From assembly GCF_038397785.1 (NCBI RefSeq), contig NZ_CP151642.1, positions 248,001-312,000 of the forward strand: a DNA stretch of 64,000 nt, read 5' to 3'. Made by a program: the position numbers and the translations under genes. Of this stretch, positions 26,324-64,000 are shown piece by piece. The notes beneath the pieces were generated by a model that saw only the letters and a list, made by a program, of their open reading frames with translations, ran no database searches and was not told the origin of the DNA. This DNA is from Salinibacterium sp. TMP30. GTDB taxonomy: Bacteria > Actinomycetota > Actinomycetes > Actinomycetales > Microbacteriaceae. Position 1 is the stretch's first letter; every line of letters begins with the position of its first letter.

Positions 26324-26358
26324 AGTGAAAGTCACAATCAACTAGAGGATGGCGTTCA

Positions 26359-32008: not shown

Positions 32009-32009
32009 G

Positions 32010-33029
32010 ATGTCAACAAATCGTGGACGATCGGTGAAAGACATGCCTCAAGTAACGCTAGATAGCGAGATTGGCCAGCGTCACAGCAAGTCTCGAGGAA
32101 GCATTGGATTCGCGATCGGGGTTCCGTTGACGGTAATCCTGCTTCTTGTCGTCGGCACGACGACATCTCCAGAGTTTTTGACTGTCCGCAACCTACTCAA
32201 CGTTCTCACGTCAATTTCCATTGTCGGCATTGTTGCTGTGGGCATGTCCTTTGTCATGATCTCTGGAGGTTGGGCCGACCTTTCGGTTCCCGCGGTCGTT
32301 GCGACGGGAGCGATCCTTGCACTTGGCATGCAAAGCACATTTGGTACGATCGGTGCGATACTGATCGCACTGGTGGCCTGTGCAACCGCCGGCCTGATAA
32401 ATGGTCTGATAGTTGGGTTCATAAAAGTGAACCCAATTGTCGTAACTTTAGGCACAAATATCATTGTGCTCGGGGCCGCGCAAGCATTCGTTGGCGGCGA
32501 CATCGTCTACAACAATGACCCAATAGCCAACGCAATAGTCGCGGGAAGAGTTTTTGGAATTCCCTTCATCGCCCTCGTTTTCCTCGTTGTCTTGCTTTTC
32601 GCTCATATAGTTCTCGCTCACACTGTGTGGGGGCGGTGGACAATTGCGGCAGGCGGCAACTATGCAGCTGCTGCAGCCTCGGGCGTGCCAGTAAAACTAG
32701 TTCGGTGCCTGGCGTTCGTCGGCACAGCCTTAGCGGCGGGGCTGAGTGGGTGTTTGCTCGCACTTTCGTTGCAGAGCGCGCGCCCCGTAATTGGAGCCGG
32801 ATACGAATTCGACGCGATAACAGCACTGGTGGTCGGCGGCGTGAGCCTGCTTGGCGGAGCTGGCAGCATACCCAGGGTGCTCGGTGGGCTTCTCATAGTT
32901 CAGCTCATAAAAAACATCATGGTGCTACAGGGATTCCCGACAACCTCACAAGGCCTTGCTGAGGGGCTCGTAATTGTCTTTGCCGTGGCACTCGACATCA
33001 AACTGCGGAAGAGATCGGGTGACCTGTAA
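32010..33029 (+). CDS. Sugar ABC importer permease (RbsC family)
   Basis: Permease of 339 residues, with a charged 30-residue cytoplasmic start and then about ten membrane segments. The family stretch EFDAITALVVGGVSLLGGAG is near residue 265. Its TAA overlaps the ATG of the next permease (TAATG at 33027-33031). An internal ATG at 32043 could be the true start. Works with the 33029 permease as a heterodimer. Confidence 0.92.
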   Translation: MSTNRGRSVKDMPQVTLDSEIGQRHSKSRGSIGFAIGVPLTVILLLVVGTTTSPEFLTVRNLLNVLTSISIVGIVAVGMSFVMISGGWADLSVPAVVATGAILALGMQSTFGTIGAILIALVACATAGLINGLIVGFIKVNPIVVTLGTNIIVLGAAQAFVGGDIVYNNDPIANAIVAGRVFGIPFIALVFLVVLLFAHIVLAHTVWGRWTIAAGGNYAAAAASGVPVKLVRCLAFVGTALAAGLSGCLLALSLQSARPVIGAGYEFDAITALVVGGVSLLGGAGSIPRVLGGLLIVQLIKNIMVLQGFPTTSQGLAEGLVIVFAVALDIKLRKRSGDL

Positions 33030-34030
33030 TGGCGCATATATTCACGATTGGGACTGCGCTTCTCAAGGCGCGACTTTGGGTAATCCTCACGGCGACACTC
33101 CTCTACGGAGCAATATTTGTTCCCGGATTTTTGTCGTTTCGTACGCTCGCCTTTAGCTTTGACCGAGCTACCACAATTGGAATTGCGGCAGTCGGGATGA
33201 CAGTGGTTCTTATCGCCGGGCAGATCGATTTGTCGATCGGATCCGTAGTGGCCCTGACCGGAATCGTGGCCATTGGATTGCAGCCCGTTCTCCCCGCGTG
33301 GATTGCTTTCCTCTTCGCAATACTTTGTGGAGGTCTCCTTGGCCTTGTGAATGGCGTGCTTACAGTTGTTTTCAAAATCAACTCGATGATCGCGACGCTG
33401 GCGACAATGCTTGCAATTAGCTCCGTAGCTTTCTTGGTTACGAATTCGCTACCCGTTTCAGGGACAGACCCGTTTTTTGGCGCGGCCGTGACTGGGAACT
33501 TGGTATGGCTCTTTACCAATCGCACAGCAATTTTCCTAGTTCTAATCCTCCTTCTACATGTTTGGCTCACTCGGTTCCCGTCCGGGAGAAACCTGTTCGC
33601 CGTCGGCAGTGACATTGGGGCAGCTCGTGACAGTGGAATAACGGCTTCGCGGATACTCGTGGGCGCATTCATCTTTATCGGTTTGTGCGCAGGGTTGTCA
33701 GGCGCCTTGTTCTCACTTCAGATCAACACAGGGTCCCCAGTCTTTGGGACCACAGTGCTGCTGGCAACAATCACCGCAGTGGTAATGGGAGGCACAACCC
33801 TAGAGGGAGGCAGGGGGTCAGCACTGGGAACACTTGGCGGCGTTATCACTGTGACAGCTCTCACAACCGCATTCGAATATGCCAGCGTCCCCGTCTACTT
33901 CCAGACGATCGTAATTGGGACGATTCTTATCGTCCTGATTGTTCTCGATCGGGCACTGGGCCGATCGCCACGGCGGAAAGCCTCCATCCCGCAAGTCTTT
34001 GCAAAACTCACTGGAAAGCCAGCAGCGTAA
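33029..34030 (+). CDS. Sugar ABC importer permease, second (RbsC family)
   Basis: Permease of 333 residues, coupled to the previous gene by a one-base overlap. Membrane segments run through most of its length, and the family motif is TTVLLATITAVVMGGTTLEG. The conserved IDLSIGSVVALTGI segment after the second membrane helix is a RbsC hallmark. Followed after 58 bp by the binding-protein gene. Confidence 0.92.
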   Translation: MAHIFTIGTALLKARLWVILTATLLYGAIFVPGFLSFRTLAFSFDRATTIGIAAVGMTVVLIAGQIDLSIGSVVALTGIVAIGLQPVLPAWIAFLFAILCGGLLGLVNGVLTVVFKINSMIATLATMLAISSVAFLVTNSLPVSGTDPFFGAAVTGNLVWLFTNRTAIFLVLILLLHVWLTRFPSGRNLFAVGSDIGAARDSGITASRILVGAFIFIGLCAGLSGALFSLQINTGSPVFGTTVLLATITAVVMGGTTLEGGRGSALGTLGGVITVTALTTAFEYASVPVYFQTIVIGTILIVLIVLDRALGRSPRRKASIPQVFAKLTGKPAA

Positions 34031-34088
34031 ATCACATTCCAATAATCAGGCACACCTCGAATGCACCAACCAATAAGGAGAATGAAAA

Positions 34089-35066
34089 ATGAAAAGGACA
34101 GCAAAAAAAATCGGACTGCTAGCGGTCGCGATGACCGTTGGTCTTGCAGCAACTTCGTGTGCAGCTGACACTTCGGGGTCAACGGGAAATGAAGGCGCAA
34201 GCGGAAAGACCGTTTGCTACATCACCGCCGCAGCAGCCCACCCCTACGTAACTCCAGCCAATGAGGCTATTGAAAAAGCTACAACAGAGGCAGGCGTGAC
34301 GCTGGTTGAGGTGAGCCAGGAGTTTGATGTTCAAACGGGAACTGACCAGCTCTCTACCTGTGTTGGACGCGGTGTTGACGGAATTATCCTGTGGCCGTTG
34401 GACCCAGATGCCTACACTTCGGGTCTTCTCAAGGCTCAACAAGCTGGGATTCCCGTCGTCGCGATGAATAGCCCTCTTGGTGAAGACGCATCGAAGCTAG
34501 TCGAATCGTTCACTGGCCCCGATCCTTATGAAACGGGTGTCCTTGCCGCACAGCTGCTCAATGAAGAACTCGACGGCGTTGGAAATATTGTTGTGATCTC
34601 AGGGCAGGCCGGAAACGGAACGTCGGTTAACACGGAAGCTGGCTTCTACGCCGAGCTAGAAAAGCTGGGATCAAAGATCGAGGTCCTCCAAACTGTGTAC
34701 GCTAACTTCGATCAGCAGGATGCCCTTGTGGCGTCACGAGATCTCATCACGCGATTTGGAGACACGATCGACGGCGCATTCACCATCGACGATGGAATGG
34801 CGCACGGTTTTGTTGACGCGTGGACTGAAAGCGGCTCGACAAAGGTGCCTGCAGTAACCGGAGTTAACGGTCAACAGGATGCGTTCGAACTCATCAGAAG
34901 CGGCATGATGACGGGTACGGTTCTCCAGTCTCCAGTGACGGATGGGGAAGTAGCCATCGCCACGATGATTGTGTTGCTCGAAGGAAAGACGGTGGACAGC
35001 CGGATTCCGATTCCGCTGCCAGTGATCACCAACGAGAACATCGACGAGCACCAGCCAGCGTTCTAG
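34089..35066 (+). CDS. Sugar-binding lipoprotein of second ABC importer
   Basis: Lipoprotein of 325 residues with a lysine-rich start and lipobox at Cys24 (AATSC). Mature part is a Peripla_BP_4 protein: VCYITAAAAHPYVTPANEAI, then VDGIILWPLDPDAYTSGLLK as ligand-site loops. AAGGAG precedes the ATG. It belongs to the rhamnose/xylose/inositol group of binding proteins; ligand not decided. Confidence 0.9.
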   Translation: MKRTAKKIGLLAVAMTVGLAATSCAADTSGSTGNEGASGKTVCYITAAAAHPYVTPANEAIEKATTEAGVTLVEVSQEFDVQTGTDQLSTCVGRGVDGIILWPLDPDAYTSGLLKAQQAGIPVVAMNSPLGEDASKLVESFTGPDPYETGVLAAQLLNEELDGVGNIVVISGQAGNGTSVNTEAGFYAELEKLGSKIEVLQTVYANFDQQDALVASRDLITRFGDTIDGAFTIDDGMAHGFVDAWTESGSTKVPAVTGVNGQQDAFELIRSGMMTGTVLQSPVTDGEVAIATMIVLLEGKTVDSRIPIPLPVITNENIDEHQPAF

Positions 35067-35108
35067 GGCCGGACTACTAGAAACTAATGAGATTGGGCAT
35101 GCACACAA

Positions 35109-36095
35109 ATGGTTAAAGTCGCCTTAATTGGAGCAGGTGCAGTTGCGGACCTCCACGCCAAATCAATTGTCGAGGTCAATGGCATCGAAATGGTCGGTGT
35201 CTGCGACACCGACGTTGAGTTGGCCGCGAACAAAGCCGAGAAATGGGGGACCAGGCACTATTCGAACTCAGTCGCCGTTTTCAACGATGATAGCGTCGAT
35301 GCCGTCCTAGTGCTCACCCACATGGATAGCCACCTCGAGCTGGCCTCAAACGCCATTTCTGCAGGAAAACATGTTTTTCTGGAGAAGCCTGTTTCAAAAA
35401 GTGCGGAGGGAATTGAAGCACTGTCCGCACAAGCAAAAGCGGCCAATTTGGTATGCATGCCCGATCACAATTACGCGTATATCCCAGAGTTCAGGCGACT
35501 TAAACGGATCGCTGATCGCGGGGACCTAGGCACAATTCGTAGTTTCCATATGAACTACGTCATCCCCCACGATGAGGAGCTAGCAAGCCGCTATACGGGA
35601 ATTCTGGAAGAGGTGATGATTCATCACAGCTATTTGACGCTATCAATCCTAGGGAAACCGGACTGGGTGGTAGCGGGGGTGGCGAAGCCAGGGTGGAAGC
35701 TGCACAAAGCAGAGGACCAAGCTTGGATGGCTTGGGACTACGATTCGGGCGCATCTGCTCACCATTTCGCATCATTCGCCACAGACGACCTGAGCAACGA
35801 CCCCTGGACTTGCATAGTTAAGGTTCTGGGCACCAACGGGTCCGCAGAAGTCAACTGGCGAACTTCCATGTTCAACCGGAAGTTCGGCACACATTCCTTC
35901 GCTTGGGTCGCCTACGAGGAAAGCTTCTCAGAAGCCCTATCGGCTTTTAGGGACGCAGTGCAAGAGGAGGTGCCGTTTGTTTCAACTCTGGATGATGCTG
36001 CAACCTCCGCGCGAATAATTGAGAAAGCGTATCTCGCAGCCAAAGAACATCGCAGTATCCCTCGGATCGATCCTCAGGGCAAGGCGGCGTGGTGA
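35109..36095 (+). CDS. Gfo/Idh/MocA-family sugar dehydrogenase
   Basis: NAD(P)-dependent oxidoreductase of 328 residues. The Rossmann start VALIGAGAVADLHAK and the family motif VFLEKPVSKS (EKP) at about residue 95 are visible, followed by the substrate domain with HHSYL near residue 175. Likely oxidises the imported sugar at C1 to the lactone. It overlaps the lactonase gene by seven bases, consistent with sequential steps. Confidence 0.88.
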   Translation: MVKVALIGAGAVADLHAKSIVEVNGIEMVGVCDTDVELAANKAEKWGTRHYSNSVAVFNDDSVDAVLVLTHMDSHLELASNAISAGKHVFLEKPVSKSAEGIEALSAQAKAANLVCMPDHNYAYIPEFRRLKRIADRGDLGTIRSFHMNYVIPHDEELASRYTGILEEVMIHHSYLTLSILGKPDWVVAGVAKPGWKLHKAEDQAWMAWDYDSGASAHHFASFATDDLSNDPWTCIVKVLGTNGSAEVNWRTSMFNRKFGTHSFAWVAYEESFSEALSAFRDAVQEEVPFVSTLDDAATSARIIEKAYLAAKEHRSIPRIDPQGKAAW

Positions 36096-36934
36096 CAAAC
36101 GACATCAACCAGGGCTGGATAGATTCCCATTTCCACTATTGGCGAGTATCGCGAGGCGACTACCCGTGGATGCCCAAAGACGGCCCGCTAAGGCGGGACC
36201 ATCTCCCGGCAGAACTCAGGAAACTGAGCGCGGAGACTGGTGTTGTCGGCAACATTTTGGTGCAGGCCGCACCAACGGTGAACGAAACCGAGTACTTGCT
36301 CGGAATCGCTGACGCTTCTCCTGAAGTACTCGGGGTTGTGGGTTGGGTCGACATGGAAGATGGCTCTTTTAGCGATCTACAACGCTTTACAGACAATGAG
36401 AAGTTCGTCGGAATACGACCGATGATTCAAGACATTGACGATGATGCGTGGATTACTCGCCCTTCGGTGTTTTCTTCCCTGAAAGAACTCGCGAGAGTGG
36501 GGCTCAGCTTTGACTTGCTCTGCAACCCTCGGCATCTTGAGTATGCAGTGCCAGTACTTAAACGAGTGCCGGAATTACGCGTTGTTGTGGACCACCTAGC
36601 AAAGCCTGACTACAGGAATCTTGACGATGACTGGCGGAAGTGGATGGGGCGCCTTGCCGCAATGCCCAACGTCGCGTGCAAAGTTGCTGGGCTGGTTAGC
36701 GAGGCGGGGACGTCGTGGCGGAACGCGGACTTCACTAGTCACATCGACGTAGTACTTGATCAGTTCGGGCCAGATCGGCTCATGATTGGCACAGATTGGC
36801 CGGTCCTTAATGGCGTTGCCTCATATACGGAGGTTGTTGAGCTTTACGAGCAAATCTTCCAAGGTCTTTCGCCGTCAGAAAAAGCGGCCATATGGTCGAA
36901 AACCGCTGTTCGCTCATACGGGCTCGTCACGTAA
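36089..36934 (+). CDS. Sugar-1,4-lactonase-like amidohydrolase (COG3618)
   Basis: Protein of 281 residues. Metal motif WIDSHFHYWR at the start, VVDHLAKPD with a ligand His in the middle, CKVAGLVSEAG and the final Asp motif IGTDWPVLNG. Close in pattern to L-fuconolactonases. It would hydrolyse the lactone made by the Gfo/Idh/MocA enzyme. Unlike the paralogue at 6878-7765 it keeps the terminal DWP Asp. Confidence 0.87.
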   Translation: MVTNDINQGWIDSHFHYWRVSRGDYPWMPKDGPLRRDHLPAELRKLSAETGVVGNILVQAAPTVNETEYLLGIADASPEVLGVVGWVDMEDGSFSDLQRFTDNEKFVGIRPMIQDIDDDAWITRPSVFSSLKELARVGLSFDLLCNPRHLEYAVPVLKRVPELRVVVDHLAKPDYRNLDDDWRKWMGRLAAMPNVACKVAGLVSEAGTSWRNADFTSHIDVVLDQFGPDRLMIGTDWPVLNGVASYTEVVELYEQIFQGLSPSEKAAIWSKTAVRSYGLVT

Positions 36935-36973
36935 TTGACAGTTTTCAAGTTTGGACAAGGGTATGGAGAAGGT

Positions 36974-37825
36974 ATGAAACTGGCTCGCTTGGGTGAACTT
37001 GGACATGAGATTCCGGTAGTTATCGATGGCGATACAACATTTGACATAAGTGCGCTGCGAACTGATTTCAACGCGGAATTCTTCGAGTCCGGCGGCCTAG
37101 ATGAGGTTCGGTCCGCCTTACTTGCTGACGATCTACCGGAAGTGCCGTATCCGACCAGTATGAGAATCGGCGCTCCAATAGCGCGGCCAAGCGCGGTCGT
37201 TTGCGTCGGAATGAACTACGCCGCTCACGCCGCCGAGTCGGGTGCCGAGCCACCCACTGAACCCATACTTTTTCTCAAAACCCCGAATACGGTAGTTGGC
37301 CCCAATGATTCGGTCAAAATCCCTCGAAATAGTGTGGCAACGGATTGGGAAGTTGAGCTGGGCATCGTCATCGGTGCGCGAGCCGCCAACTTGGAGAGGC
37401 GAGAGGATTCACCGAACCACATTGCTGGGTTTGTGATGGCAAATGATGTTTCGGAGCGCGACTACCAACTCAAATCGCCCGGCGGACAATGGTCAAAGGG
37501 TAAGTGCGCGCCGGGGTTTAACCCGGTCGGTCCGTGGCTCGTCACTAGTGACTCGATCGATCATAAGAACTTGCGCCTGCGCAGCTGGGTAAATGGCGAG
37601 ACTCGACAAGATTCCTCAACCTCGGACATGATCTTTGACGTCGACTACATCGTTTGGTACGTAAGCCAGTTCCTTACTCTTGAGCCAGGTGACCTGGTTC
37701 TCACAGGTACGCCCGAGGGAGTCGCACTATCGGGCAGATTTCCATTTTTGGCTGATCAGGATGTGGTCGAAATGGAGATCGAAGGCTTGGGTCATCAGCG
37801 TCAAGAATTCGTCAGGTCCGAATAG
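36974..37825 (+). CDS. Fumarylacetoacetate-hydrolase-family protein, diketo-deoxy sugar-acid hydrolase-like
   Basis: Protein of 283 residues from ATG 36974 (GGAG at 36965-36968); an upstream TTG at 36935 would add 13 residues. FAH motifs are FLKTPNTVVGPND, DWEVELGIVIG with acidic metal ligands, and FVMANDVSERDYQ. In the non-phosphorylative L-fucose or L-rhamnose route such an enzyme splits 2,4-diketo-3-deoxy acids to pyruvate and lactate. Together with the lactonase and dehydrogenase genes this suggests that pathway. Confidence 0.87.
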   Translation: MKLARLGELGHEIPVVIDGDTTFDISALRTDFNAEFFESGGLDEVRSALLADDLPEVPYPTSMRIGAPIARPSAVVCVGMNYAAHAAESGAEPPTEPILFLKTPNTVVGPNDSVKIPRNSVATDWEVELGIVIGARAANLERREDSPNHIAGFVMANDVSERDYQLKSPGGQWSKGKCAPGFNPVGPWLVTSDSIDHKNLRLRSWVNGETRQDSSTSDMIFDVDYIVWYVSQFLTLEPGDLVLTGTPEGVALSGRFPFLADQDVVEMEIEGLGHQRQEFVRSE

Positions 37826-53744: not shown

Positions 53745-54120
53745 ACCATCCTAGGAGTAGAGCCCTTTCAATCTCGCCCACGCCGTCGCTGAGAATTCGT
53801 GTGGTCGTAGTCGAAGTGACCCACGGCGGGGCGCGTGATAGCTCTACGGTCTGATGTCACGCACAGGCCGACCTCTACTTTGTTCCGGCCGTCCGCGCGG
53901 CCCTGTCGCTTTCGCTGCTGTCAGCGCGCGTGGCAACGCTCCGCTGACGACAGCTTCTTCGTCGCCGACGAGAAAGCGATGCCGAAGAAGAAGGGACGTG
54001 CAGGACGCACGATGACACATGCCCTCTATGAGATGAGGAGGTATCGAGGAAGATAACGATGAGTAGACAACGAGCAGACAATGCACGCAGGCACTATTGA
54101 GTGGGGGGTACTCTAGTTGC
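53745..54120. other. Stretch upstream of the relaxase gene, possible oriT region
   Basis: No convincing gene. Short repeats such as GTAGACAACGAGCAGACAAT and the GC-rich run GGGGGGTAC lie near 54060-54110, just before the relaxase. MobF relaxases often nick close to their own gene, so this is a candidate oriT by position only. Confidence 0.3.
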
Positions 54121-57100
54121 ATGCGCGGAGGGATAGCCAGGTGGAAGCGAGGGGTTGCTTCTCAGGGTGTCCGGCAGGCCCTTGATTACGCATTTGGCGG
54201 TACGTGCGACTCGCACATGGCTACTTCTGCCGGATCTGAAGCGGCAGCCAATTACACCGATGGTGTGATTGAACGCTTCGTCGTAGAGGACGGGGTTACG
54301 GTCTCTGACTTGCTCAGCCGTGACCAGTTGAAGGCGTGGATTGGTGGTGCAGATGCGGAAACGGGCGAGCACCGTGGCCGCGAACTTCCGTCACCGGAGG
54401 CGGACCTGTTGCTTGATGCGACAGTCAATTCTCCGAAGTCCTTCTCGCTCGTGGCTCTTCTAGATGATGAATTGGCGGTCGAGTTCGAGCAGCTTCAGGA
54501 TCGCCTGCGCGACCGTGTGCTGCTGACGTGGCAGTCGGAGCTCAACGCTCGCCGCGGCGCTGGGGGCGCGGTCAGGGAAGAGCTTTCGCGTATTGAAGTT
54601 GTCGAACTCAAGCACGAACGTTCACGTTCGTTGGACCCTCACAAGCACCGTCACCTGTGGCTGAATATGAAGGTTCGCGGCGTCGATGGTCGATGGTCAA
54701 ACATCGATTCACGAGTGGCTTTACGGTTCCAAACTGTGGTCAATTCTGAAGGCGATTTGGCCGCTCGAACAGACCCAGAATGGATCGCTGCATTGGCAGC
54801 TAAAGGGTTCACATTGGATGCCTCTGGGGAGATCGAACAGCTCGCACATGTGGTGCGTCCGTTGTCGCGTCGGTCGAACCAAATTGAGGCGAACCGAGCA
54901 CTGAAACTTGCCGAGTGGAAAGCCACTCATCCGGGTCAAGAACCTGACCACACTGTGCTGACTGCAATCGACCGTTGGGCATGGGCGGCAGGCCGTCCGA
55001 ACAAGCCGGGCAAGGTTGACGAAGCTCGCTGGACCGAGGTTGTGCGGAACGAATTGTTGGGTCTTGACCCCAAGGTTTTGAACATGCGGTCAGCAGCAGA
55101 TGTTGTCCCGGTTCACGTAGGCGAGCTTGATCGTGACCTCCTCGCAGCTCAAGCTATCGCGGATGCTGACCGACGCTCTGCTGGCACTGGTGGTCGATTT
55201 AGTCACTACGACATCCGCGCCGGCGCCGGCCGTGCCGTTGCCGCAAGCGGCATTGTTCTCGACCGTGCGCGCCTGTCAGAGCTGCTCGAGGACGTCGTTT
55301 CGCGAGCCGTCTCGACAGAGACCGTTGAACTCTCCGACGACGTCGATGCACTCCCCGGTCACGTCAAGCACTACATGGCAGCCGACACCGCCGTGCTCAA
55401 AACACAGCTCGCCGACCAACTCGATCTGCTCATTGAAGCGGGCGAGTCAGTTGCGGTCGGCGCTATCGAGACCATCGCCAGCCGTGTGCTGAGCGACGGC
55501 CGACGACTCGATGAAGGACAGACAAACGCCGCGGCCGCCATCGCCGGCAGCGACCGTTTAGTGACCGTCACCGGGCCTGCCGGCACGGGTAAGACGACCA
55601 TGCTGAAAGTTGCTGCAGCATCGCTGGCAGAGCAAAGTCGCCAACTCATCGTCGTCGCCCCGACAAAGAAAGCAGCCAGCGTCGCCGGCCGCGAGACTGG
55701 CGCAACGGCATCATCGTTGCACGGTCTCTTGTACGACAACGGATGGCGTTTCGCAGTCGATGCGGCGGGCGTTCAGCGCTGGTCGCAGCTCGCTGTCGGT
55801 TCAGTTAGCCCCGACACTGGTGCCATCTACGAAGGTCCCCGTAGGCACGTGCTGCAACCACGCGACCGCATCGTCGTGGATGAGGCAGGGATGATCGACC
55901 TGAACGCAGCGCGTGCGCTGGCGATTCTTGCCGAGCAGTCCGGAGTCGGTATCGCGATGGTTGGCGACCACCTGCAGGCCTCCCCAGTTGGACACTCTGG
56001 GGCGATGGCATTGACCAAGCAGCGCTCGACTGCGGTTGTGGAACTCACCGCAATTCACCGTTTCAAAGACCCCGAGTATGGGCAACTGTCGATGCGACTG
56101 CGCGATCCGGGCAGCGAAGAGGCTGCCGCCGATGTCGCTCGCGAACTGTATGACGGCGGGCACGTAGCTTGCGTCTCCAACGACATCGACGCCCGCGCAC
56201 GAATGGTTTCTGGCTACTTCGAGACCGCTGGTGTCGGACACAGTATCGCCCTGGTTACGGGCACCAATTCGGATGCGCAGTTCGTGAATGAGAGCATCCA
56301 GAGTGAACGTGTTGCTCGTGGCCAGCTCGCAACGAAACGTCTCGCCGAGGGACAGGACGGCCAGCGGTTATTGGAAGGCGACGTGGTGCAGACCCGTCGC
56401 AACGACTCCAGCACTGGTGTTGAGAACCGTGCTCTGTGGGTTGTGAAGAAGATCCGCGATAGCGAGATCGTTCTCGCCAATGCGGTTCAAGCTGGGGATA
56501 CAAGGACCGTCACACGTGAGTACGGTACCAAGCACTTGCACCTCTCGTATGCCTCGACAGTGCACGGCATTCAGGGTGTGACTACCGACGTTGCGATTGT
56601 CGGGCCGGGGGTTGACGCAGCCGGTTTGTATGTTGGGATGACGCGTGGCCGGCGCCATAACGAGGCTGTTGTGCTTGCTGGCAGTCGTGGCCAGGCGGTT
56701 GAGATCGTTGCCGAGTCAATGCGGCGCGGCCGCGTGGAGATCACCCTCGATGATTCCCGAGCCGCTGCAGCAGCCGAACTATTGCGTGCTGCGCGTTCAC
56801 CTGAAGGCGGCAGTGTCGATACGGTTGAGGGCATGCCGGCTGACGATCCTCGGCGTCCTGCAATCCTCACTGCACGAGCAGAGGTCCATGCACAGCTGGA
56901 GAAACTGTCAGGCCGGCTCACGCGCGATCGCCAGACGATCCGTGAACTCGATACGCGCCTCGCCCAACGAGCAGCGCTCAACCACAGTGCCCACATCGCC
57001 GGCGGCGAGCAAGAGCCCGTTGATGCGCTGAAATCTGCCAAGGTTAAGTTGCTCGAGCGGCTCAAAGATGACTCAGCTAAACGGGGCCAGCTTGCAGCAC

Positions 57101-57237
57101 GCTACCGCAAGCTCAGCGATTCTCTAGAGAAGCCAGAGCAACCGCCCGTCGAACGTTCGAAGGTGCCGGCGCCGGATCTCGCACGCCCGGCAGCATCTGC
57201 GCCGTTGGCTGCTGAGAACTCGGGCTTGTCGCTGTAA
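54121..57237 (+). CDS. MobF (TrwC/TraI-type) relaxase-helicase
   Basis: Protein of 1038 residues from ATG 54121; a TTG at 54097 would add eight. The N-terminal relaxase domain has the histidine triad in HKHRHLWLNM near residue 190 and candidate Tyr in the first 50 residues (LDYAFGG, NYTDG). The second half is a RecD2/TraI-like helicase: GPAGTGKTTM, IVVDEAGMID, GDHLQASPVG and VHGIQGVTTDVAIVGPGVDA. It would nick oriT, stay attached to the strand and unwind the DNA during conjugation. The C-terminus (890-1038) is coiled-coil then disordered. No type IV secretion genes are in the window. Confidence 0.93.
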   Translation: MRGGIARWKRGVASQGVRQALDYAFGGTCDSHMATSAGSEAAANYTDGVIERFVVEDGVTVSDLLSRDQLKAWIGGADAETGEHRGRELPSPEADLLLDATVNSPKSFSLVALLDDELAVEFEQLQDRLRDRVLLTWQSELNARRGAGGAVREELSRIEVVELKHERSRSLDPHKHRHLWLNMKVRGVDGRWSNIDSRVALRFQTVVNSEGDLAARTDPEWIAALAAKGFTLDASGEIEQLAHVVRPLSRRSNQIEANRALKLAEWKATHPGQEPDHTVLTAIDRWAWAAGRPNKPGKVDEARWTEVVRNELLGLDPKVLNMRSAADVVPVHVGELDRDLLAAQAIADADRRSAGTGGRFSHYDIRAGAGRAVAASGIVLDRARLSELLEDVVSRAVSTETVELSDDVDALPGHVKHYMAADTAVLKTQLADQLDLLIEAGESVAVGAIETIASRVLSDGRRLDEGQTNAAAAIAGSDRLVTVTGPAGTGKTTMLKVAAASLAEQSRQLIVVAPTKKAASVAGRETGATASSLHGLLYDNGWRFAVDAAGVQRWSQLAVGSVSPDTGAIYEGPRRHVLQPRDRIVVDEAGMIDLNAARALAILAEQSGVGIAMVGDHLQASPVGHSGAMALTKQRSTAVVELTAIHRFKDPEYGQLSMRLRDPGSEEAAADVARELYDGGHVACVSNDIDARARMVSGYFETAGVGHSIALVTGTNSDAQFVNESIQSERVARGQLATKRLAEGQDGQRLLEGDVVQTRRNDSSTGVENRALWVVKKIRDSEIVLANAVQAGDTRTVTREYGTKHLHLSYASTVHGIQGVTTDVAIVGPGVDAAGLYVGMTRGRRHNEAVVLAGSRGQAVEIVAESMRRGRVEITLDDSRAAAAAELLRAARSPEGGSVDTVEGMPADDPRRPAILTARAEVHAQLEKLSGRLTRDRQTIRELDTRLAQRAALNHSAHIAGGEQEPVDALKSAKVKLLERLKDDSAKRGQLAARYRKLSDSLEKPEQPPVERSKVPAPDLARPAASAPLAAENSGLSL

Positions 57238-57807: not shown

Positions 57808-58464
57808 CTATGAGGCCTTTTCGCGAATGGCTACGGCGCGGATCGGCGATCCGTCCAGCCCCGCCAAACGCAGAGGGAGGAGGGAGACAAGAGGGCGCGT
57901 CCAATCTATCCTCCCCAGATTCGTCAGGTTTTCGACGATGTACCCACCGGAGCCGAGCATGAGGTCATGGATCGCGACACTATTGTGCTCCTCACCGTCC
58001 GGATCTGGGTTGATCAGATCGACGCCCAGAACGCGCACTCCGCGATTAAGTAATTCTTCACCGAGCTCGGGCGCAAGGTATGGATGGTCCAGATACAAAG
58101 CTGATCCGTAGTGAGACGACCAACCTGTCGCGATGAAGACGATGTCATTCGGGCGGACGCTTTCCAACTGATCACGGACGTGCGAAACGGTGATCGCCTG
58201 GCCCGCACCGATCTCGGGAACTGACAGCACCACTGCGGGGCCGAAGAGCAGTCCGAGTTCCGCCTCGTCGATCGTTCCGGCGCCGTCGAAACGATGGCTA
58301 GGTGCATCGATGTGGGTTCCACTATGCGTTCCCAGGCGGAGAGATGCAACCGCGAAGCCGGTTTCGTCGACTGAACTAGCCGTTGAAATTTCCACTGTTG
58401 GGTCACCCGGGTAGACCGGCATTCCGGTGACCACTGGGTGGGTCAAGTCCAATATCGAATACAA
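57808..58464 (-). CDS. Cyclase / kynurenine-formamidase-like metal hydrolase
   Basis: Protein of 218 residues of the cyclase family. The metal motif HSGTHIDAPSHR near residues 47-58 and the start ILDLTHPVVTGMPVYPGDP are typical. Members hydrolyse N-formyl-kynurenine or other amides, cyclic imides and isatin. It faces away from the BMC operon over a 97-bp divergent promoter region, so its substrate may belong to the same pathway. No encapsulation tag is visible at either end. Confidence 0.85.
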   Translation of the reverse strand: MYSILDLTHPVVTGMPVYPGDPTVEISTASSVDETGFAVASLRLGTHSGTHIDAPSHRFDGAGTIDEAELGLLFGPAVVLSVPEIGAGQAITVSHVRDQLESVRPNDIVFIATGWSSHYGSALYLDHPYLAPELGEELLNRGVRVLGVDLINPDPDGEEHNSVAIHDLMLGSGGYIVENLTNLGRIDWTRPLVSLLPLRLAGLDGSPIRAVAIREKAS

Positions 58465-58491
58465 GAGTATTGCCCTCCTTCATCCCCGGGG

Positions 58492-58553
58492 TTGACACCC
58501 GGCTCCCGCAATTATAGCATCTTGGCATGACCAAATAGGTCGTACCAAGGAGG
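58492..58553 (+). promoter_or_regulatory. Promoter, GntR-type operator and ribosome site of BMC operon
   Basis: TTGACA at 58492-58497 and TAGCAT at 58515-58520 are 17 bp apart. Directly after lies TTGGCATGACCAA (58522-58534), and with AGGTCGTACCAA it forms a larger imperfect palindrome to 58548. The TTGGnnnnnCCAA form is close to operators of FadR-type GntR regulators, one of which is encoded at 61057. AAGGAGG at 58547-58553 serves the BMC-H start. Confidence 0.65.
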
Positions 58554-58561
58554 ATTCTTAC

Positions 58562-58849
58562 ATGCCTAACGACGCTTCGACCGCGCTGGGAATCGTTGCT
58601 ACAAGGGGTCTCGTTGCTGCTGCGGAGGCGGCTGATGCGATGCAGAAGGCGGCAGTTGTTAACTATGAGGGGCGTCACTTCCTCGGTGATGGAACGGTTA
58701 CGGTCTTGATTTCGGGGGAACTTGCCGCGGTAAAGGCTGCGACTGACGCAGCGGTCGACAGGGCGCGTAGCGTTGGCGAGGTCCTCGGCGTGACTGTAAT
58801 CTCGCGGCCGAGCGACGCCGTTCACTCACTGCTCGCACCGCAAGCCTGA
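58562..58849 (+). CDS. Bacterial microcompartment hexameric shell protein (BMC-H)
   Basis: Protein of 95 residues covering one BMC domain: ALGIVATRGLVAAAEAADAM, then YEGRHFLGDGTVTVLISGEL-AAVKAATDAAVDRA and VGEVLGVTVISRPSD. This is the PduA/EutM/CcmK pattern; hexamers tile into protein shells. The pore turn reads LGDG, in place of the common GSG/GGG, which would change the pore charge. First gene of an operon with amidohydrolase, BMC-P and ureohydrolase genes. A single BMC-H and no BMC-T are seen, a minimal shell set; others may be outside the window. Confidence 0.93.
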   Translation: MPNDASTALGIVATRGLVAAAEAADAMQKAAVVNYEGRHFLGDGTVTVLISGELAAVKAATDAAVDRARSVGEVLGVTVISRPSDAVHSLLAPQA

Positions 58850-58869
58850 CTCGGCGCTCGAGAAGCCTC

Positions 58870-59892
58870 ATGTCGAAAGTAGTTACTGCCAACGATGTTC
58901 GTGATGCGATTCGACGAGGTCTCATGACGATCACGACCGACCATGAAGCTATAATCACCTCCGAGGCCCGCGATGTCGCAAAGTCGGCTGGGGTCGAGAT
59001 TGTGCAGGAATCCTCCGGGGGCTGCTGCGGTGTAGGACCCCAACCGCTTGCCACCTTCGGACAAGTATCGTCGTTCGATTCAGGCCCGCAGCGCCCGCTG
59101 ACCATGTCTCACTATGACGGCAGCTCTCCGCTCATCGCGGCCATTGCTGCTCCCATACGTGCTCTTATGCCGATTGATGCTCACGTCCATATCGGTCGCG
59201 CTCGATGGATGAGTGAGGACGTGGCAGCTGATTCTGTCCTAGATTTAATGAAAGATTCAGGTGTCGCAAAGTCTTGCGTCTTCCCTTTTGCTGATAGAGA
59301 GATGGACGCTTCAGAGGCTGTCTGGGAGGCGACACGCGGACGTCGGGACCTCATTCCGTTCGCCCTATGCAATCCCCTTGAACCCGGCAGCGCCTCGAAG
59401 CTCCGAGCCTTTTTGTTGCAGGGCTTCCGCGGGATAAAGATGCATCCGACTGCGCACGGATACCCCCTAGACCAATATGACATCGTCGACCCGATATTCG
59501 AGCTCGCCCGTGAATTCTCCGTGCCAATTGTCTGCCACTGTTTTTCGGACACGCCTTTTAATACTGCGGGTCAGTTCAAAGATCTCGCAGGTCGGTTCCC
59601 TCAGGTTGATCTCATTGCCCTTCATGGCGGGTTCATGTGGCATACGGCCGGCTTGGCAGAAGCGGCGCGAACACTGCCGAATCTATTTCTCGAAACCAGC
59701 ACTGTCTACCCGAATCTCTTGCGTAAGCACATAGCAGACGTCGGCGTCGAACACTTCATCTTTGGAAGCGACACCCCCTTCAATTCCTCTGCCGCGGAAC
59801 TGGGCAAGCTTCAACTTTCGGTCGAATCGATCGATGATCTGAAGGAACTGGTTTCCGGCAATCTTTCACGAATTCTTGCGAAACGAGGTTGA
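58870..59892 (+). CDS. Amidohydrolase with EutQ-like N-terminal segment (probable BMC lumen enzyme)
   Basis: Protein of 340 residues. Residues 1-47 (VVTANDVRDAIRRG, then IITSEARDVAKSAGVEIV) resemble the N-terminus of EutQ (ITAND...IITPEAREVA), a segment tied to microcompartments. A Cys/Gly linker SSGGCCGVGPQP follows. The amidohydrolase-2 domain starts at about residue 100: IDAHVHIG with metal His105/107, GIKMHPTAHG, IVCHCFSD, ALHGGF and a final FGSDTPF. It likely hydrolyses or decarboxylates a small cyclic or amide substrate inside the shell. Placed between the two shell genes. Confidence 0.85.
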   Translation: MSKVVTANDVRDAIRRGLMTITTDHEAIITSEARDVAKSAGVEIVQESSGGCCGVGPQPLATFGQVSSFDSGPQRPLTMSHYDGSSPLIAAIAAPIRALMPIDAHVHIGRARWMSEDVAADSVLDLMKDSGVAKSCVFPFADREMDASEAVWEATRGRRDLIPFALCNPLEPGSASKLRAFLLQGFRGIKMHPTAHGYPLDQYDIVDPIFELAREFSVPIVCHCFSDTPFNTAGQFKDLAGRFPQVDLIALHGGFMWHTAGLAEAARTLPNLFLETSTVYPNLLRKHIADVGVEHFIFGSDTPFNSSAAELGKLQLSVESIDDLKELVSGNLSRILAKRG

Positions 59893-59896
59893 GCTA

Positions 59897-60163
59897 ATGC
59901 TCATTGGACAAGTAATAAATCCTGTAGTGTGTGACGCTGCCATCCCGGAGCTTCGAGGCCTTCCGCTAGTGACAGTCGCGATAGAGACCGTCGACGCGTC
60001 GCCTCGCTTAATGGTTGCGGTCGACGTCGTCGGCGCTGGAGTCGGTGCCAATGTGCTTATTGCGGAGGGAGATGCCGCCCGACTCGCAGTGCGCAACCTC
60101 AGTGCACCTATCGAGGCAGCGGTCGTTGGCCTGGTTCGGGGTTCCACCAATGTCCAGTCCTAA
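59897..60163 (+). CDS. Bacterial microcompartment pentameric shell protein (BMC-P, EutN/CcmL family)
   Basis: Protein of 88 residues: MLIGQVINPVVCDAAIPELR-GLPLV, then VAVDVVGAGVGANVLIAEGD-AARLAV and PIEAAVVGLV, the standard EutN/CcmL beta-barrel pattern. Pentamers close the vertices of the shell. The ATG at 59897 is 4 bp after the amidohydrolase stop; its end overlaps the ureohydrolase ATG at 60150 by 14 bases. Confidence 0.93.
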   Translation: MLIGQVINPVVCDAAIPELRGLPLVTVAIETVDASPRLMVAVDVVGAGVGANVLIAEGDAARLAVRNLSAPIEAAVVGLVRGSTNVQS

Positions 60164-61064
60164 ATACGTCGGGATCCGAACTTTCCTGGGAGCTCCCCAG
60201 TCCGCGGTGAACGAGGTGCTTTCCGGTCAAATCGTATTCTGCGGTGCCCCACTCGACGCTGGGCAGACTTACCGGGTGGGGGCCCGCCATGGACCATCTG
60301 CAATTAGAGAAGCCTCTCGTGTGGTTAGACCTTATAATCCGCGTCTGGATCTTGACCTCTCAGCACTTGCGTTAAGCGACGCAGGCGACGCAGATGTGGC
60401 TCCCGGCTCCATCGAGCGTGGTTTCGAAGCTATCCGTTCTCATATTGGAGCGATCGTCCAACGGGGCGCATATCCGATGATCATGGGCGGGGACTGTTCT
60501 ATCGCATTTCCAGTCCTTGGCGAGTTGTACTCAAAATGGGGCCCGATTGCATTGGTTCACTTTGATGCACACACCGACACATGGGACGAGTACTGGGGCG
60601 AGCGATACACGCACGGCACCGCTGTCCGTCGCGCGATCGAAGCAGGATTTATCGAACCCTCCGCCTCCGTACAAGTGGGCATACGCGGTTCGGGCTATGG
60701 TCCTAGTGACGTAGAACAGAGCCGAGATCTTGGCCTTCTGGTGTTGACGGCGGATCAGGTGCACGCAGATGGCGCCTCTGAAACAGCCCGACGGATTGTC
60801 GAACGAGTTGGTTCACACCCAGTCCTCGTTCACTTCGATATTGATTGTCTAGACCCAGCGCACGCGCCGGGTACTGGAATGCCAGAAGTGGGTGGTCTGA
60901 CAACGCACGACGCCTCGATCATTCTCGTCGGTCTTGCAGGTATCAACGTAGTCGCAGCAGAAGTGACCGAGGTCCTTCCTGCATACGACCCGAGTGGTAT
61001 CACAGCGATTGCAGCGGCGAATGTTCTGTTTGAACTAGCGAGTCTGGCAGGTTCGCATGGCTGA
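60150..61064 (+). CDS. Ureohydrolase (agmatinase/guanidino-acid hydrolase family) with altered metal motif
   Basis: Protein of 304 residues of the arginase superfamily, which releases urea from guanidino compounds using a two-metal site. Motifs are GGDCS at 113-117, HFDAHTDTW (Asp139, His141, Asp143), and HFDIDCLDP (Asp230, Asp232) with GMPEVGGL. The first motif is normally GGDHS; here Cys116 replaces the metal-binding His, so metal choice or activity may differ. Overlaps BMC-P by 14 bases and the GntR gene by eight. No clear encapsulation peptide. Substrate could be a guanidino acid or guanidine-like compound. Confidence 0.87.
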   Translation: MSSPKYVGIRTFLGAPQSAVNEVLSGQIVFCGAPLDAGQTYRVGARHGPSAIREASRVVRPYNPRLDLDLSALALSDAGDADVAPGSIERGFEAIRSHIGAIVQRGAYPMIMGGDCSIAFPVLGELYSKWGPIALVHFDAHTDTWDEYWGERYTHGTAVRRAIEAGFIEPSASVQVGIRGSGYGPSDVEQSRDLGLLVLTADQVHADGASETARRIVERVGSHPVLVHFDIDCLDPAHAPGTGMPEVGGLTTHDASIILVGLAGINVVAAEVTEVLPAYDPSGITAIAAANVLFELASLAGSHG

Positions 61065-61827
61065 TGAGGCAGGGCCCCAATCCGTATTCCTTACGCCTTC
61101 GCCCGTCAGCTTGTTGGAGTTAAGAAGCAAAGGCGTTCACGGCGCAGTAGCACTTGCCGCCGAGGTTGAGCGACTGATCGTCTCCGGTGCCATCGCTGAC
61201 GGGGCGCGACTTCCTACTGAGCGCGAGCTCGCTGAGTTGCTGGGGATGTCGCGGGCGTCGGTCAGGGAGGCGATGTACGAGCTGTCCCTCAAAGGAATAG
61301 TCGATCGGCGTAGGAGCCGAGGTTCTGTAGTGGTTTTCGATCAGTCGAGTTCAAACCGATTACTACATACCAGTATGCCCAGAGACGAACGAGAGTTTTG
61401 GGAAGTAGTTGAATTTCGGTCAGAGATCGAGCCTGTCATCGCTAGCCGGGCTGCGCTTACGGCAACACCGAGTGATCTTGTTGTCTTGCGGGAGATCTTG
61501 AGGGCACAGGAAGATTCGGCAGATGTCGACAGCGCCATCGCGAATGACCGAGCATTCCACATCCAGATTGCGTCGCTCACTCACAATCAGCTCTTCGTCA
61601 GGCTCGCAGAGGTCAGCGCGGAGTGGCTCGTCCCCACGCGCAAACGATCTCAATCCACAATGGCAGGCCGACGCCGGTCGATCGCCGAACATCGCCTGAT
61701 TCTTGATGCGATAGCTGCCAACGATCCAGAACGCGCTAGCGAAGCGATGCGAACGCACATCGAAAGTGTTGCGGAGCTTGCTCAGATGGCCAGTCCGGTA
61801 CCCAGAGTAGTGAGAGTCGCGCACTAA
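61057..61827 (+). CDS. GntR-family regulator, FadR/FCD subfamily
   Basis: Regulator of 256 residues. The winged HTH is at about 25-95 (LPTERELAELLGMSRASVRE, GIVDRRRSRGSVVVF), and the FCD ligand domain follows with acidic and His metal-site positions (EFRSEIEPVIASRAA, DRAFHIQIA, EHRLILDAI). It probably binds the TTGGCATGACCAA site before the BMC-H gene and responds to the pathway substrate. Overlaps the ureohydrolase gene. Confidence 0.9.
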   Translation: MADEAGPQSVFLTPSPVSLLELRSKGVHGAVALAAEVERLIVSGAIADGARLPTERELAELLGMSRASVREAMYELSLKGIVDRRRSRGSVVVFDQSSSNRLLHTSMPRDEREFWEVVEFRSEIEPVIASRAALTATPSDLVVLREILRAQEDSADVDSAIANDRAFHIQIASLTHNQLFVRLAEVSAEWLVPTRKRSQSTMAGRRRSIAEHRLILDAIAANDPERASEAMRTHIESVAELAQMASPVPRVVRVAH

Positions 61828-61867
61828 GCACAACGTAATCACGGTTCACCAAGAAAAGGAGATAACA

Positions 61868-62704
61868 ATGAAGTTATGTAAGAAAGCGCTGGCGGTGTCC
61901 GCAGGCTTGTTCTCGGTCGCTCTGCTACTTTCAGCTTGCGCCTCGACCGACGGTGCTGACAACGCTGCGGAGCGTCCGACAATTAGGGTTGGTTTGGACC
62001 CTAACCTCCCTCCGCTTTCGAGCCTAGATCCCGATGATCCTTCTAAGATCATTGGCGCCGAAATCGACATGATGGAAGCAACCTTCGCGCACTTGGGTTA
62101 CGACTTCGAACTCGTTCCCCAGGCTTGGTCAGGAATCCTTCCCGCTCTCGATTCTGGGCAAGTCGACGTAATGTGGTCGATCCTGTACTACACGCCAGAG
62201 CGGGCGGCAAATGTGGACTTCATCACCTATCTTCGCGCGGACACCGGTGTCCTAGCAAAAGAGGGTTCGACGCTCAAAATCTCGTCCACTCTCGATCTTT
62301 GCGGGCTCACTGGCGCTGCGACTCTCGGAACGCTCGAGGTAGATCTGTACAACGAGATTTCTACCGAGTGCAAAGCTGCGGATCTTTCTGGAATCGACGT
62401 GCTGACGTTCCCGGACCCGGCGGCGACAGTTCGGGCCGTACAAAACGAGCGCGCCGATGTCGCCACATATAACGCCGTTCTTGTTTCTACCATCATTGAG
62501 CAGGTTCCGGGAGTCGAGCAGATTTTCATCATTCCCCAGAACAATCTCGTGGGCGTTGGGGTAGCTAAGGGAAATGTTGATCTCCGAGACTCGATCGCGG
62601 AGGGTGTTGCGTGGTTGCAGGAAAGCGGTACGCAGGAGGATATTTTGCGTGCGTGGGGGATCGATCCCGATCTCATGGTTTCGACCGAGATACTGACCCA
62701 GTAG
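61868..62704 (+). CDS. Amino-acid-type ABC importer binding lipoprotein (SBP family 3)
   Basis: Lipoprotein of 278 residues with lipobox at Cys24 (LLSAC). The mature part is SBP_bac_3: IRVGLDPNLPPLSSLDPDDP, GAEIDMMEATFAHLGYDFEL, and DVMWSILYYTPERAANVDFI as ligand contacts. It typically binds amino acids or related cations. AAGGAG precedes the ATG. A strong hairpin separates it from the transporter gene. Confidence 0.9.
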   Translation: MKLCKKALAVSAGLFSVALLLSACASTDGADNAAERPTIRVGLDPNLPPLSSLDPDDPSKIIGAEIDMMEATFAHLGYDFELVPQAWSGILPALDSGQVDVMWSILYYTPERAANVDFITYLRADTGVLAKEGSTLKISSTLDLCGLTGAATLGTLEVDLYNEISTECKAADLSGIDVLTFPDPAATVRAVQNERADVATYNAVLVSTIIEQVPGVEQIFIIPQNNLVGVGVAKGNVDLRDSIAEGVAWLQESGTQEDILRAWGIDPDLMVSTEILTQ

Positions 62705-62722
62705 TTATAGTCCTACAACCGA

Positions 62723-62757
62723 GTCGAAGGGGCGCTAACCAATGGCGCCCCTTCGAC
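62723..62757 (+). terminator. Hairpin between binding-protein and transporter genes
   Basis: Perfect 13-bp stem GTCGAAGGGGCGC / GCGCCCCTTCGAC with a 9-nt loop, 19 bp after the binding-protein stop. Likely a partial terminator or mRNA 3'-end stabiliser giving excess binding protein. Confidence 0.75.
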
Positions 62758-62777
62758 TGAAAGAATGCGTGTGAATC

Positions 62778-64000
62778 ATGGATTTCATTTCGGAAGTTGC
62801 CCGTTACTTGTTCTCGACTTTCATGCTCGAGGGCGCATTCATCACGATTGGAATAGGGATAGCGGCGATGGCCGGGGGGCTTGTCTTCGGGCTTCTTCTA
62901 GCACTCATGCGGTTATCGCGGTTCCGTCCTGTGTCCGCGATAGCCGCTTTCTACATTTGGGTTTTTCGGGGTACTCCCCAACTACTTCAACTCGTGTTCC
63001 TGTTCGACGCGTTACCGCGACTCGGCATCACCATGTCCCCGATTATGACGGCGATTGTTGGTTTTGCGCTCAATGAAGCCGCGTTTGCGGGTGAGATCGT
63101 TCGTGGTGGAATAAACTCTGTCCAGAAGAACCAGCGTCTTGCTGCTGCATCTCTAGGAATGAGCCCCACACTCACACTGTTCCGAGTTGTGCTGCCACAA
63201 GCTCTCCGAAGCATCGTGCCCGCTCTAGGAAATGACTTTGTCAACGTCGTAAAGATGACTTCGATAGCCTCTGTCATTGCAGTGAGCGAGTTGACTCTTA
63301 GAAGTCAGCAAATTGTGGCCTCGACTTTTGAATTTTTTCCAGTCTTTACCGCCGCTGCAATTTACTACCTAGTCGCTACGTCCATCCTTGGCGCCATGCA
63401 GCGGTCACTTGAACGCCGTCTAGACCCGACGGTCGCACCAAGCGAAAGCATGGCGAGAAGGCTTGTGGGCTTGGGCATGCGCCGCAGGGTCGTGGGTGCG
63501 CGTCCTGATGGCGAGCCAGAAGACGCCGAACGAATTGTTCCGATTGAGGCTCGCCAGATTGGACCCAACCCGACGAAGATTGCCGAAGCGATTAGCCGTG
63601 AAATCGCTGTATCGACCCCCGTTTTGGAACCCTTCCTCTCGTGTAAATCGCTCGAGAAGTCGTATGGGTCAAGGCAGGTGATCAAGGATGTTAACTTGGA
63701 GGTCATGTCAGGTGAAGTCGTCGTTCTAATGGGCCCGAGTGGCTCGGGAAAGAGCACGATACTCCGCTTGATCGATCACTTGGAGACGGTGGATGGCGGG
63801 GAGATTCTCGTCGGTGGCCGACACATCGGATATCGCGCCAATAAGGGAAAACTGGTGCCGACACGGCATGTTCATCAGGAACGCGTCGACGCGGGCGTGG
63901 GAATGGTCTTCCAAAGCTTCAACCTCTTCGAGCACATGACCGTCTTGGAAAATCTTATAGAGGCTCCGGTTCGAGTGCTGGGCGAGAGCCGAGAGGTGGT
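62778..64000 (+). CDS. Fused amino-acid ABC permease and ATP-binding protein (partial, runs off window)
   Basis: One frame is open from ATG 62778 to the end of the window. Residues 1-220 are a polar-amino-acid permease (MLEGAFITIGIGIAAMAGGL, the EAA loop as AAASLGMSPTLTLFRVVLPQ). A linker of about 65 residues follows, then an ATPase from about residue 290 with LSCKSLEKSYGSRQVIKDVN, Walker A GPSGSGKST and Q-loop MVFQSFNLFEHM. The signature and Walker B lie beyond the window. Permease-ATPase fusions are known in actinobacterial amino-acid importers. Confidence 0.9.
   Translation, partial: MDFISEVARYLFSTFMLEGAFITIGIGIAAMAGGLVFGLLLALMRLSRFRPVSAIAAFYIWVFRGTPQLLQLVFLFDALPRLGITMSPIMTAIVGFALNEAAFAGEIVRGGINSVQKNQRLAAASLGMSPTLTLFRVVLPQALRSIVPALGNDFVNVVKMTSIASVIAVSELTLRSQQIVASTFEFFPVFTAAAIYYLVATSILGAMQRSLERRLDPTVAPSESMARRLVGLGMRRRVVGARPDGEPEDAERIVPIEARQIGPNPTKIAEAISREIAVSTPVLEPFLSCKSLEKSYGSRQVIKDVNLEVMSGEVVVLMGPSGSGKSTILRLIDHLETVDGGEILVGGRHIGYRANKGKLVPTRHVHQERVDAGVGMVFQSFNLFEHMTVLENLIEAPVRVLGESREV

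Follow-up and report, generated by a model that had tools for sequence, protein, structure and literature searches.

A compact bacterial microcompartment locus with a EutQ-tagged amidohydrolase and a ureohydrolase among conjugation genes of Salinibacterium sp. TMP30

Genes of the locus and its shell proteins

We describe here a compact bacterial microcompartment (BMC) locus from Salinibacterium sp. TMP30 that combines a minimal set of shell genes with an amidohydrolase-superfamily enzyme carrying a EutQ-type N-terminus and with a ureohydrolase. The locus occupies positions 57808-64000 of the window, by which we mean the whole 64,000-nucleotide stretch that was analysed (genome positions 248,001-312,000 of NZ_CP151642.1). 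The host genome is a single contig of 2,685,429 bases with an estimated completeness of 99.97%. A preliminary description made from the letters alone had named the genes and their positions, and all of these were borne out by a reading of the open reading frames (ORFs) and by a Pfam scan of eight locus proteins, in which every named family scored above its curated cut-off.

On the forward strand, the genes from the BMC-H shell hexamer through the GntR regulator are all intact and overlap or nearly touch. The BMC-H gene (58562..58849; PF00936, E 2.5e-18) is followed by the amidohydrolase-superfamily gene (58870..59892; PF04909, Amidohydro_2, 6.1e-19), the BMC-P shell pentamer gene (59876..60163; PF03319, 2.5e-17) and the gene for a ureohydrolase of the guanidinopropionase/guanidinobutyrase group (60150..61064; PF00491, 1.8e-80), whose ATG at 60150 lies 14 nt within the BMC-P gene. 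The FadR/FCD-type GntR gene (61057..61827; PF07729 1.2e-25, PF00392 4.3e-15) in turn starts 8 nt within the ureohydrolase gene. The divergent cyclase and the amino-acid-type importer placed on either side by the preliminary description are likewise present. The former is a cyclase or kynurenine-formamidase-like hydrolase on the reverse strand with a TTG start (57808..58464; PF04199, E 1.9e-30); the latter consists of a substrate-binding lipoprotein (61868..62704, forward; PF00497, SBP_bac_3, 1.9e-27) and a permease fused in one frame to its ATPase (62778..64000, forward, and onward to genome position 312391; PF00528 and PF00005).

The preliminary description had also stated that no aldehyde chemistry adjoins the shell genes, and this holds for the locus and its surroundings, where a scan of 17 ORFs matched no aldehyde dehydrogenase family at E up to 0.001 (the rest of the genome was not searched for them). 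PduL gave no match in the whole host genome. A standard aldehyde dehydrogenase/PduL module to the right of 64 kb would have spoken against that description; the DNA there holds the remainder of the transporter, a TauE-type permease, a cupin-like ORF and then conjugation genes, and no such module.

The BMC-H protein is the sole PF00936 match of the host genome (E 0.001) and the BMC-P protein its sole EutN_CcmL match, and therefore the shell set consists of one hexamer and one pentamer. A complete shell calls for at least one BMC-H (PF00936) and at least one BMC-P (PF03319), and genes for both are present. Translation of BMC-P probably begins at an in-frame ATG at 59897, giving 88 amino acids, because alignments to solved EutN/CcmL chains begin at or near it: two of the four alignments shown open by pairing residue 8 of the longer reading with residue 1 of the chain, and the other two begin at residues 9-10. 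The BMC-H protein carries Asp43 at the position that aligns, with PduA and others, to the pore residue Ser40 of PduA; chain 4rbu has Gln there in one alignment. Across 33 BMC domains including our own, a set of fetched sequences that includes permuted and two-domain proteins and is no census, this position is Gly in 20, Ser in six, Pro in three, Ala in two and Leu in one, with Asp found solely in the protein from this locus.

The tagged enzyme and its partners

The evidence that sets the amidohydrolase-superfamily enzyme apart lies in its first 48 residues (58870..59013, forward). Positions 1-48 of the NCBIfam EutQ profile match residues 1-47 of the enzyme with an E of 4e-6 and 26.7 bits, a score far below the 193-bit whole-protein cut-off of the model, as expected of a single domain. 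When residues 1-48 were run as the query against 20 BMC stretches of other phylum members (295,651 bases), three of the stretches gave matches below 1e-3, at loci L125, L127 and L131, and two of these proteins appear by eye to run on into cupin-like sequence. The 80 loci of untagged relatives (1,195,476 bases, counting stop-to-stop fragments of at least 25 residues) yielded nothing with this query up to an E of 1, and its next-best match in the host genome has an E of 0.64. The profile match and the recurrence in BMC loci together uphold the earlier description of a tagged amidohydrolase. The PF04909 enzyme is also the only one at the locus with a recognised encapsulation-type tag, EutQ-like by sequence: the alignment of the ureohydrolase with solved enzymes starts at its residue 3 and leaves no N-terminal extension, and no extension or tag was seen on the cyclase. 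The L131 match falls on a 132-residue protein (9036-9434, reverse strand) in which no cupin can be recognised behind the module, and which may be an adaptor that stands free.

Set against EutQ, the enzyme has the N-terminal module, with the C-terminal cupin acetate kinase replaced by a PF04909 barrel, at which most of the untagged relatives shown in the alignment begin. An AlphaFold2 model contains helices at residues 7-15 and 31-39, a low-confidence stretch at 47-81, a further helix at 87-98 and then a TIM barrel with pLDDT mostly above 90. According to excerpts of a study of Salmonella EutQ (PMC12487888), helices H1 and H2 dock at the EutM/EutL interface of the shell, and H3 and H4, which lie beyond a flexible region, bind cargo. 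Because its N-terminal helices match the shell-binding part of EutQ, the amidohydrolase may be its own shell adaptor, with the tag working as an encapsulation signal.

The barrel keeps the residues of its superfamily (HxH, DAHVHIG, GIKMHP, H252 and FGSD). Among the best 50 of 237 Foldseek neighbours with E up to 0.001, all at 12-18% identity, the uncharacterised proteins 3cjp and 3irs stand on top, followed largely by decarboxylases and pyrone (lactone) hydrolases. The preliminary claim that the shell encloses a hydrolytic route is therefore unsupported as stated, because the sole recognised tag is on this one enzyme and its fold relatives include decarboxylases as well as pyrone hydrolases.

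The closest solved relatives of the ureohydrolase are guanidinopropionase (3nip, 2e-61) and guanidinobutyrase (3nio, 2e-59). GGDH, DAHxD and DxDxxDP are the canonical binuclear metal-ligand motifs of ureohydrolases; here the last two are intact and the first reads GGDC, a possible change of catalytic metal. The GGDH histidine is kept in 35 of 35 other homologues resolved, and Cys occurs only in our protein. This tally comes from 36 loci, 33 of which gave the motif (32 besides our own, all with His), and from three later additions that also have His, namely L181 and both chromosomal ureohydrolase paralogues of the host; two further ORFs of L147 read GGEHA, and L146 and L149 were left out as unresolved. 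With these two paralogues (E up to 1e-65) in the genome, the ureohydrolase of the locus is unlikely to be required for the routine utilisation of such compounds.

The guanidino substrate proposed in the preliminary description remains reasonable in view of these nearest solved enzymes, with the qualification that the altered metal ligand leaves the ureohydrolase activity predicted only. The first-listed plasmid homologue (47% identity) adjoins genes for methylmalonate-semialdehyde dehydrogenase, alanine dehydrogenase and an aminotransferase, a setting that would fit a route from guanidinopropionate to beta-alanine; other homologues lie in differing settings, one of them with 5-guanidino-2-oxopentanoate decarboxylase. 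The ureohydrolase also has Tyr at the position equivalent to Tyr157 of GpuA (alignment numbering), the specificity position of guanidinopropionase. We dropped this residue as evidence for a single substrate, as it is common to other actinobacterial homologues. The solved proteins closest to the cyclase bear the names kynurenine formamidase, isatin hydrolase and metal-dependent hydrolase, and its 81.6 bits fall below the arylformamidase equivalog cut-off of 223.

The binding protein of the importer keeps the Arg of the TPER motif. The Asp position of amino-acid binders falls on Tyr in the best alignment and is offset by one or two residues in others. Given the ligand roles of this Arg and Asp in amino-acid binders, the pattern would suit a carboxylate that has no alpha-amino group. 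The fused permease-ATPase is 537 amino acids long and extends from window position 62778 to position 12391 of the stretch L002 (L002 10778-12391).

Several candidate signals precede the BMC-H gene. A promoter-like site (TTGACA-17-TAGCAT; 58492..58520, forward) matches the consensus at 10 of 12 positions, and just downstream of its -10 element lies an operator-like inverted repeat (GACC-AAATA-GGTC; 58529..58541, forward) that is a candidate GntR/FadR site; the stretch AAGGAGGA also precedes BMC-H beside them. The scanned region has four promoter-like sites versus a shuffle mean of 1.9, which is suggestive only. GACC-N5-GGTC occurs once in the window, where 1.43 copies are expected by chance, and so the count is not above chance and the placement alone is suggestive.

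Conjugation backbone and rarity

To the left of the locus lies a MOBF/TrwC relaxase gene (54097..57237, forward; PF08751, 7.7e-27) whose product is 54% identical to the relaxase of a Microbacterium amylolyticum plasmid and is collinear in both with TraD-side genes. The collinear series comprises two small proteins (45% identity), a TraD-like protein (53%), an ATPase (54%) and further genes (21-33%). From the relaxase to the first small protein, the distance is 8,792 bases in the host versus at most 877 in the plasmid. This comparison suggests that the approximately 8-kb locus is a discrete insertion between the relaxase and the TraD-side genes and came as a unit. If so, the cyclase, shell, enzymes, regulator and importer can be regarded as a single system even if their neighbourhood is not conserved elsewhere. 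Repeats flanking this cargo (one 10-base direct match and two 9-base inverted matches) are treated as chance matches.

The right end of the cargo is formed by the TauE-type permease gene (L002:12428-13213) and the small cupin-like ORF (L002:13458-13835), the latter of which, at 26.1 bits, narrowly misses the Pfam cut-off of 27.2. The permease had raised the idea of taurine or taurocyamine as substrate, which we dropped as there is no desulfonation gene among the scanned cargo ORFs. Elsewhere in the window, to the left of the conjugation genes, positions 25703-37825 hold what appears, by eye from ORF starts, to be a separate catabolic block with RidA-like, IclR-like, dehydrogenase, sugar-type ABC importer and hydrolase-like ORFs.

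Relatives were sought in several samples of genomes, which are non-exhaustive and overlap. BMC-P was found in 1 of 239 family genomes searched, the host itself, and in 0 of the 238 others. The order sample (297 genomes, E 1e-20) yielded eight matches to the amidohydrolase including our own, the other seven aligning only from residue 91 or later, and the phylum sample (396 genomes, E 1e-30) yielded our own enzyme only. Eight matches, again including our own, were found among 27 genomes of the genus; six begin at residue 96 or later, and the G719 match is truncated where its contig stops. In 348 genomes from the Merdimonas faecis family there were 18 matches, three of them partial and none from before residue 98. 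A scan of a genome collection with two peptide patterns, which can miss relatives and from which our own record may have been left out, produced 488 pattern matches, and there was no tagged relative among the 80 best of 367 confirmed relatives. When 20 of these 80 genomes were searched whole, one match (G686) extended from residue 29 through two stops, and the DNA upstream of it was not tag-like. Among plasmid records, the enzyme was matched in 34, in none over 80% of its length, and neither the locus nor BMC-P was found in any.

In the phylum, BMC-P has relatives in 40 other genomes, the best approximately 40% identical. The stretches around BMC-P from 20 of these 40, several of them short owing to contig ends, gave no match to the ureohydrolase, cyclase or amidohydrolase barrel at E 1e-3. 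Three of four untagged amidohydrolase relatives whose neighbourhoods were read by eye from ORF starts seem to lie in operons of sugar-type ABC importers; we dropped any transfer of function from them, as they are too distant. Two side observations concern the untagged relatives: cyclase-family genes occur several kb from the amidohydrolase relative in 4 of the 80 loci (L043, L047, L053 and L089), and the genomes of L013 (Herbiconiux) and L045 (Dielma) have two amidohydrolase matches side by side.

Proposed function, alternatives and known systems

We give about an even chance to the explanation that this is a complete, minimal and mobile BMC operon for a carboxylated, guanidino-type compound, functioning without aldehyde chemistry. 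One BMC-H and one BMC-P would form the shell, with the amidohydrolase-superfamily enzyme as its core cargo, self-anchored through its N-terminal helices. The GntR protein would control the promoter before BMC-H and perhaps also the divergent cyclase. The importer may take in a carboxylated, nitrogen-rich compound that lacks an alpha-amino group, the likeliest being a guanidino acid such as 3-guanidinopropionate, 4-guanidinobutyrate or a relative. The ureohydrolase would then split off urea, either in the cytosol or on the surface of the shell, and a labile intermediate could enter through acidic pores and be hydrolysed or decarboxylated by the encapsulated enzyme. The cyclase might start or finish the route outside the shell, and no aldehyde, CoA or alcohol step would be expected. 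On this proposal the operon would have arrived as approximately 8 kb of cargo on a conjugative element, as the collinear plasmid suggests.

Several points weigh against this proposal. The tag region of the AlphaFold2 model is of low confidence (block means 47-68), and docking in Salmonella also needs EutL, a BMC-T protein, when the host genome is without a second BMC-domain gene. The Cys at the metal site could mean that the ureohydrolase is dead or repurposed, and the substrate guess leans on remote relatives, with 47% as the highest identity among the listed matches of the ureohydrolase. The best urease alpha match in the host genome reaches 21.4 bits versus a cut-off of 23, and with no urease above the cut-off, the cell may be unable to draw on the nitrogen of the urea set free (the search covered urease and not other routes of urea use). 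The TauE-type permease and the cupin-like gene past the window are given no explanation. The lower GC content of the cargo (0.562 versus 0.607 and 0.603 in the flanks) is weak support for its status as cargo, because GC spans 0.52-0.63 along the window. PLSDB types the collinear plasmid as non-mobilizable, with the reservation that its relaxase gene crosses the record start, where the PLSDB table lists no genes. Finally, the order, phylum, genus, family and collection searches turned up no relative that shares this gene set, and so no case in which co-conservation of the shell genes and the enzymes could bear on function.

Among competing explanations, the one we regard as unlikely yet still the strongest of the alternatives would place a decarboxylase or a lactone or ring hydrolase inside the shell, in a heterocycle route of the XAU kind in which the ureohydrolase acts on a ring-opened amidino product. 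The decarboxylases and pyrone hydrolases among the fold neighbours argue for it, as do the cyclase-family hydrolase at the locus and the cyclase-family genes near a few untagged relatives; however, the uncharacterised amidohydrolase 3cjp heads the fold matches, and the cargo genes include neither the xanthine dehydrogenase nor the formimidoyltransferase of the XAU set (excerpts of PMC6620236), for which the rest of the genome was not searched. It is improbable, in our view, that the shell is degenerate or repurposed, with BMC-H and BMC-P making sheets, tubes or a scaffold for the tagged enzyme and no closed compartments. The single BMC-domain gene would suit such a scaffold. So would the interface motifs of BMC-H, which read KAAV and SRPS instead of the KAAN and P/A-RPH of typical hexamers (excerpts of PMC8217296). 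Yet both proteins are intact, the Lys and Arg of the motifs are kept, and a pentamer, useful mainly for closing shells, has been retained.

We consider it similarly improbable that the locus belongs to a catalogued aldehyde-free type, BUF2 or BUF3, and is possibly already listed with the same enzymes. In the excerpts of the 2021 catalogue (PMC8217296), BUF loci are defined by the absence of aldehyde dehydrogenase and BUF2 is restricted to one phylum, and an excerpt of Ravcheev 2019 (PMC6620236) notes a cluster of Clostridium hylemonae in which the numbering places a hydrolase between the shell genes. However, the same catalogue has 'MIC12/BUF23' in a BMC-T(dp) clade, which we take to mean that MIC1-2 and BUF2-3 have BMC-T, and the host lacks a second PF00936 match; nor do the 348 genomes of the Merdimonas faecis family include a tagged relative. 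Far less probable still is a dispersed aldehyde metabolosome of the FRAG type, with the genes for its aldehyde dehydrogenase and other enzymes lying away from the locus. Scattered BMC genes have been described (excerpts of PMC8217296), and our search for aldehyde dehydrogenases covered the locus and not the genome. Nevertheless, the genome has no PduL match and no second convincing copy of the tag, and a pre-existing unlinked partner is unlikely because the locus sits as cargo and BMC-P is missing from the other family genomes sampled.

Returning to the minimal guanidino operon, it seems appropriate to ask what such a locus could mean. The locus narrows the question of why some BMCs exist where there is no aldehyde to contain to two shell proteins and one tagged enzyme. 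Cargo of approximately 8 kb could be cloned whole and assayed, a EutQ module fused directly to an enzyme is of use for engineering cargo loading, and the arrangement suggests that a BMC can enter a lineage by a single transfer. More tentatively, and with somewhat less than even confidence, we envisage a transferable, self-contained one-enzyme organelle with acidic pores, an altered-metal ureohydrolase and non-aldehyde guanidino or heterocycle chemistry, spreading as the cargo of conjugative elements. Its one hexamer, one pentamer and one enzyme serving as its own adaptor would be the smallest natural BMC gene set.

The locus falls in the aldehyde-free class of BMCs and is set apart from the 2014 BUF loci and from XAU by its gene content. 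Like those systems, as far as excerpts of PMC4207490, PMC8217296 and PMC6620236 describe them, it joins shell genes to amidohydrolase-type enzymes for a nitrogen compound with no aldehyde core. The 2021 definition of BUF agrees with the 17 ORFs scanned at the locus, a comparison that does not extend to unlinked genes, and the 2014 BUF loci have a shell set with BMC-T and many enzymes (excerpts of PMC4207490), which the single PF00936 match in the host genome does not provide. Unlike BUF and XAU, the locus pairs a single BMC-H with a single BMC-P, includes an arginase-family enzyme and an enzyme that carries its own tag, and sits as cargo in a conjugation backbone.

The ARO loci of Actinobacteria offer a likeness in their very simple shell without BMC-T (one BMC-P and two BMC-H types), which excerpts of PMC8217296 count among the simplest seen, and plasmid matches would place the host genome in Actinobacteria too; ARO differs in its second BMC-H, aldehyde dehydrogenase and aromatic-ring enzymes, none of which are in our locus. 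The N-terminal helix module is shared with EutQ, where it binds the shell in Salmonella; EutQ recruits other cargo, whereas our module is fused directly to a TIM-barrel enzyme. GpuA and GbuA are the best solved relatives of the ureohydrolase, which shares the Tyr at the Tyr157 position of GpuA and differs in its Cys for a metal-site His and in its linkage to shell genes. Among the literature matches listed, no publication joins BMCs with ureohydrolase, arginase or guanidino compounds (two reviews contain both kinds of word, without a joint subject as far as the listing shows), and none by title concerns BMC loci on conjugative elements. As far as can be seen from the literature searched, four features are new relative to known systems: the one-plus-one shell, the EutQ module on a barrel enzyme, the altered metal ligand of the arginase-family partner, and the position inside a conjugation backbone.

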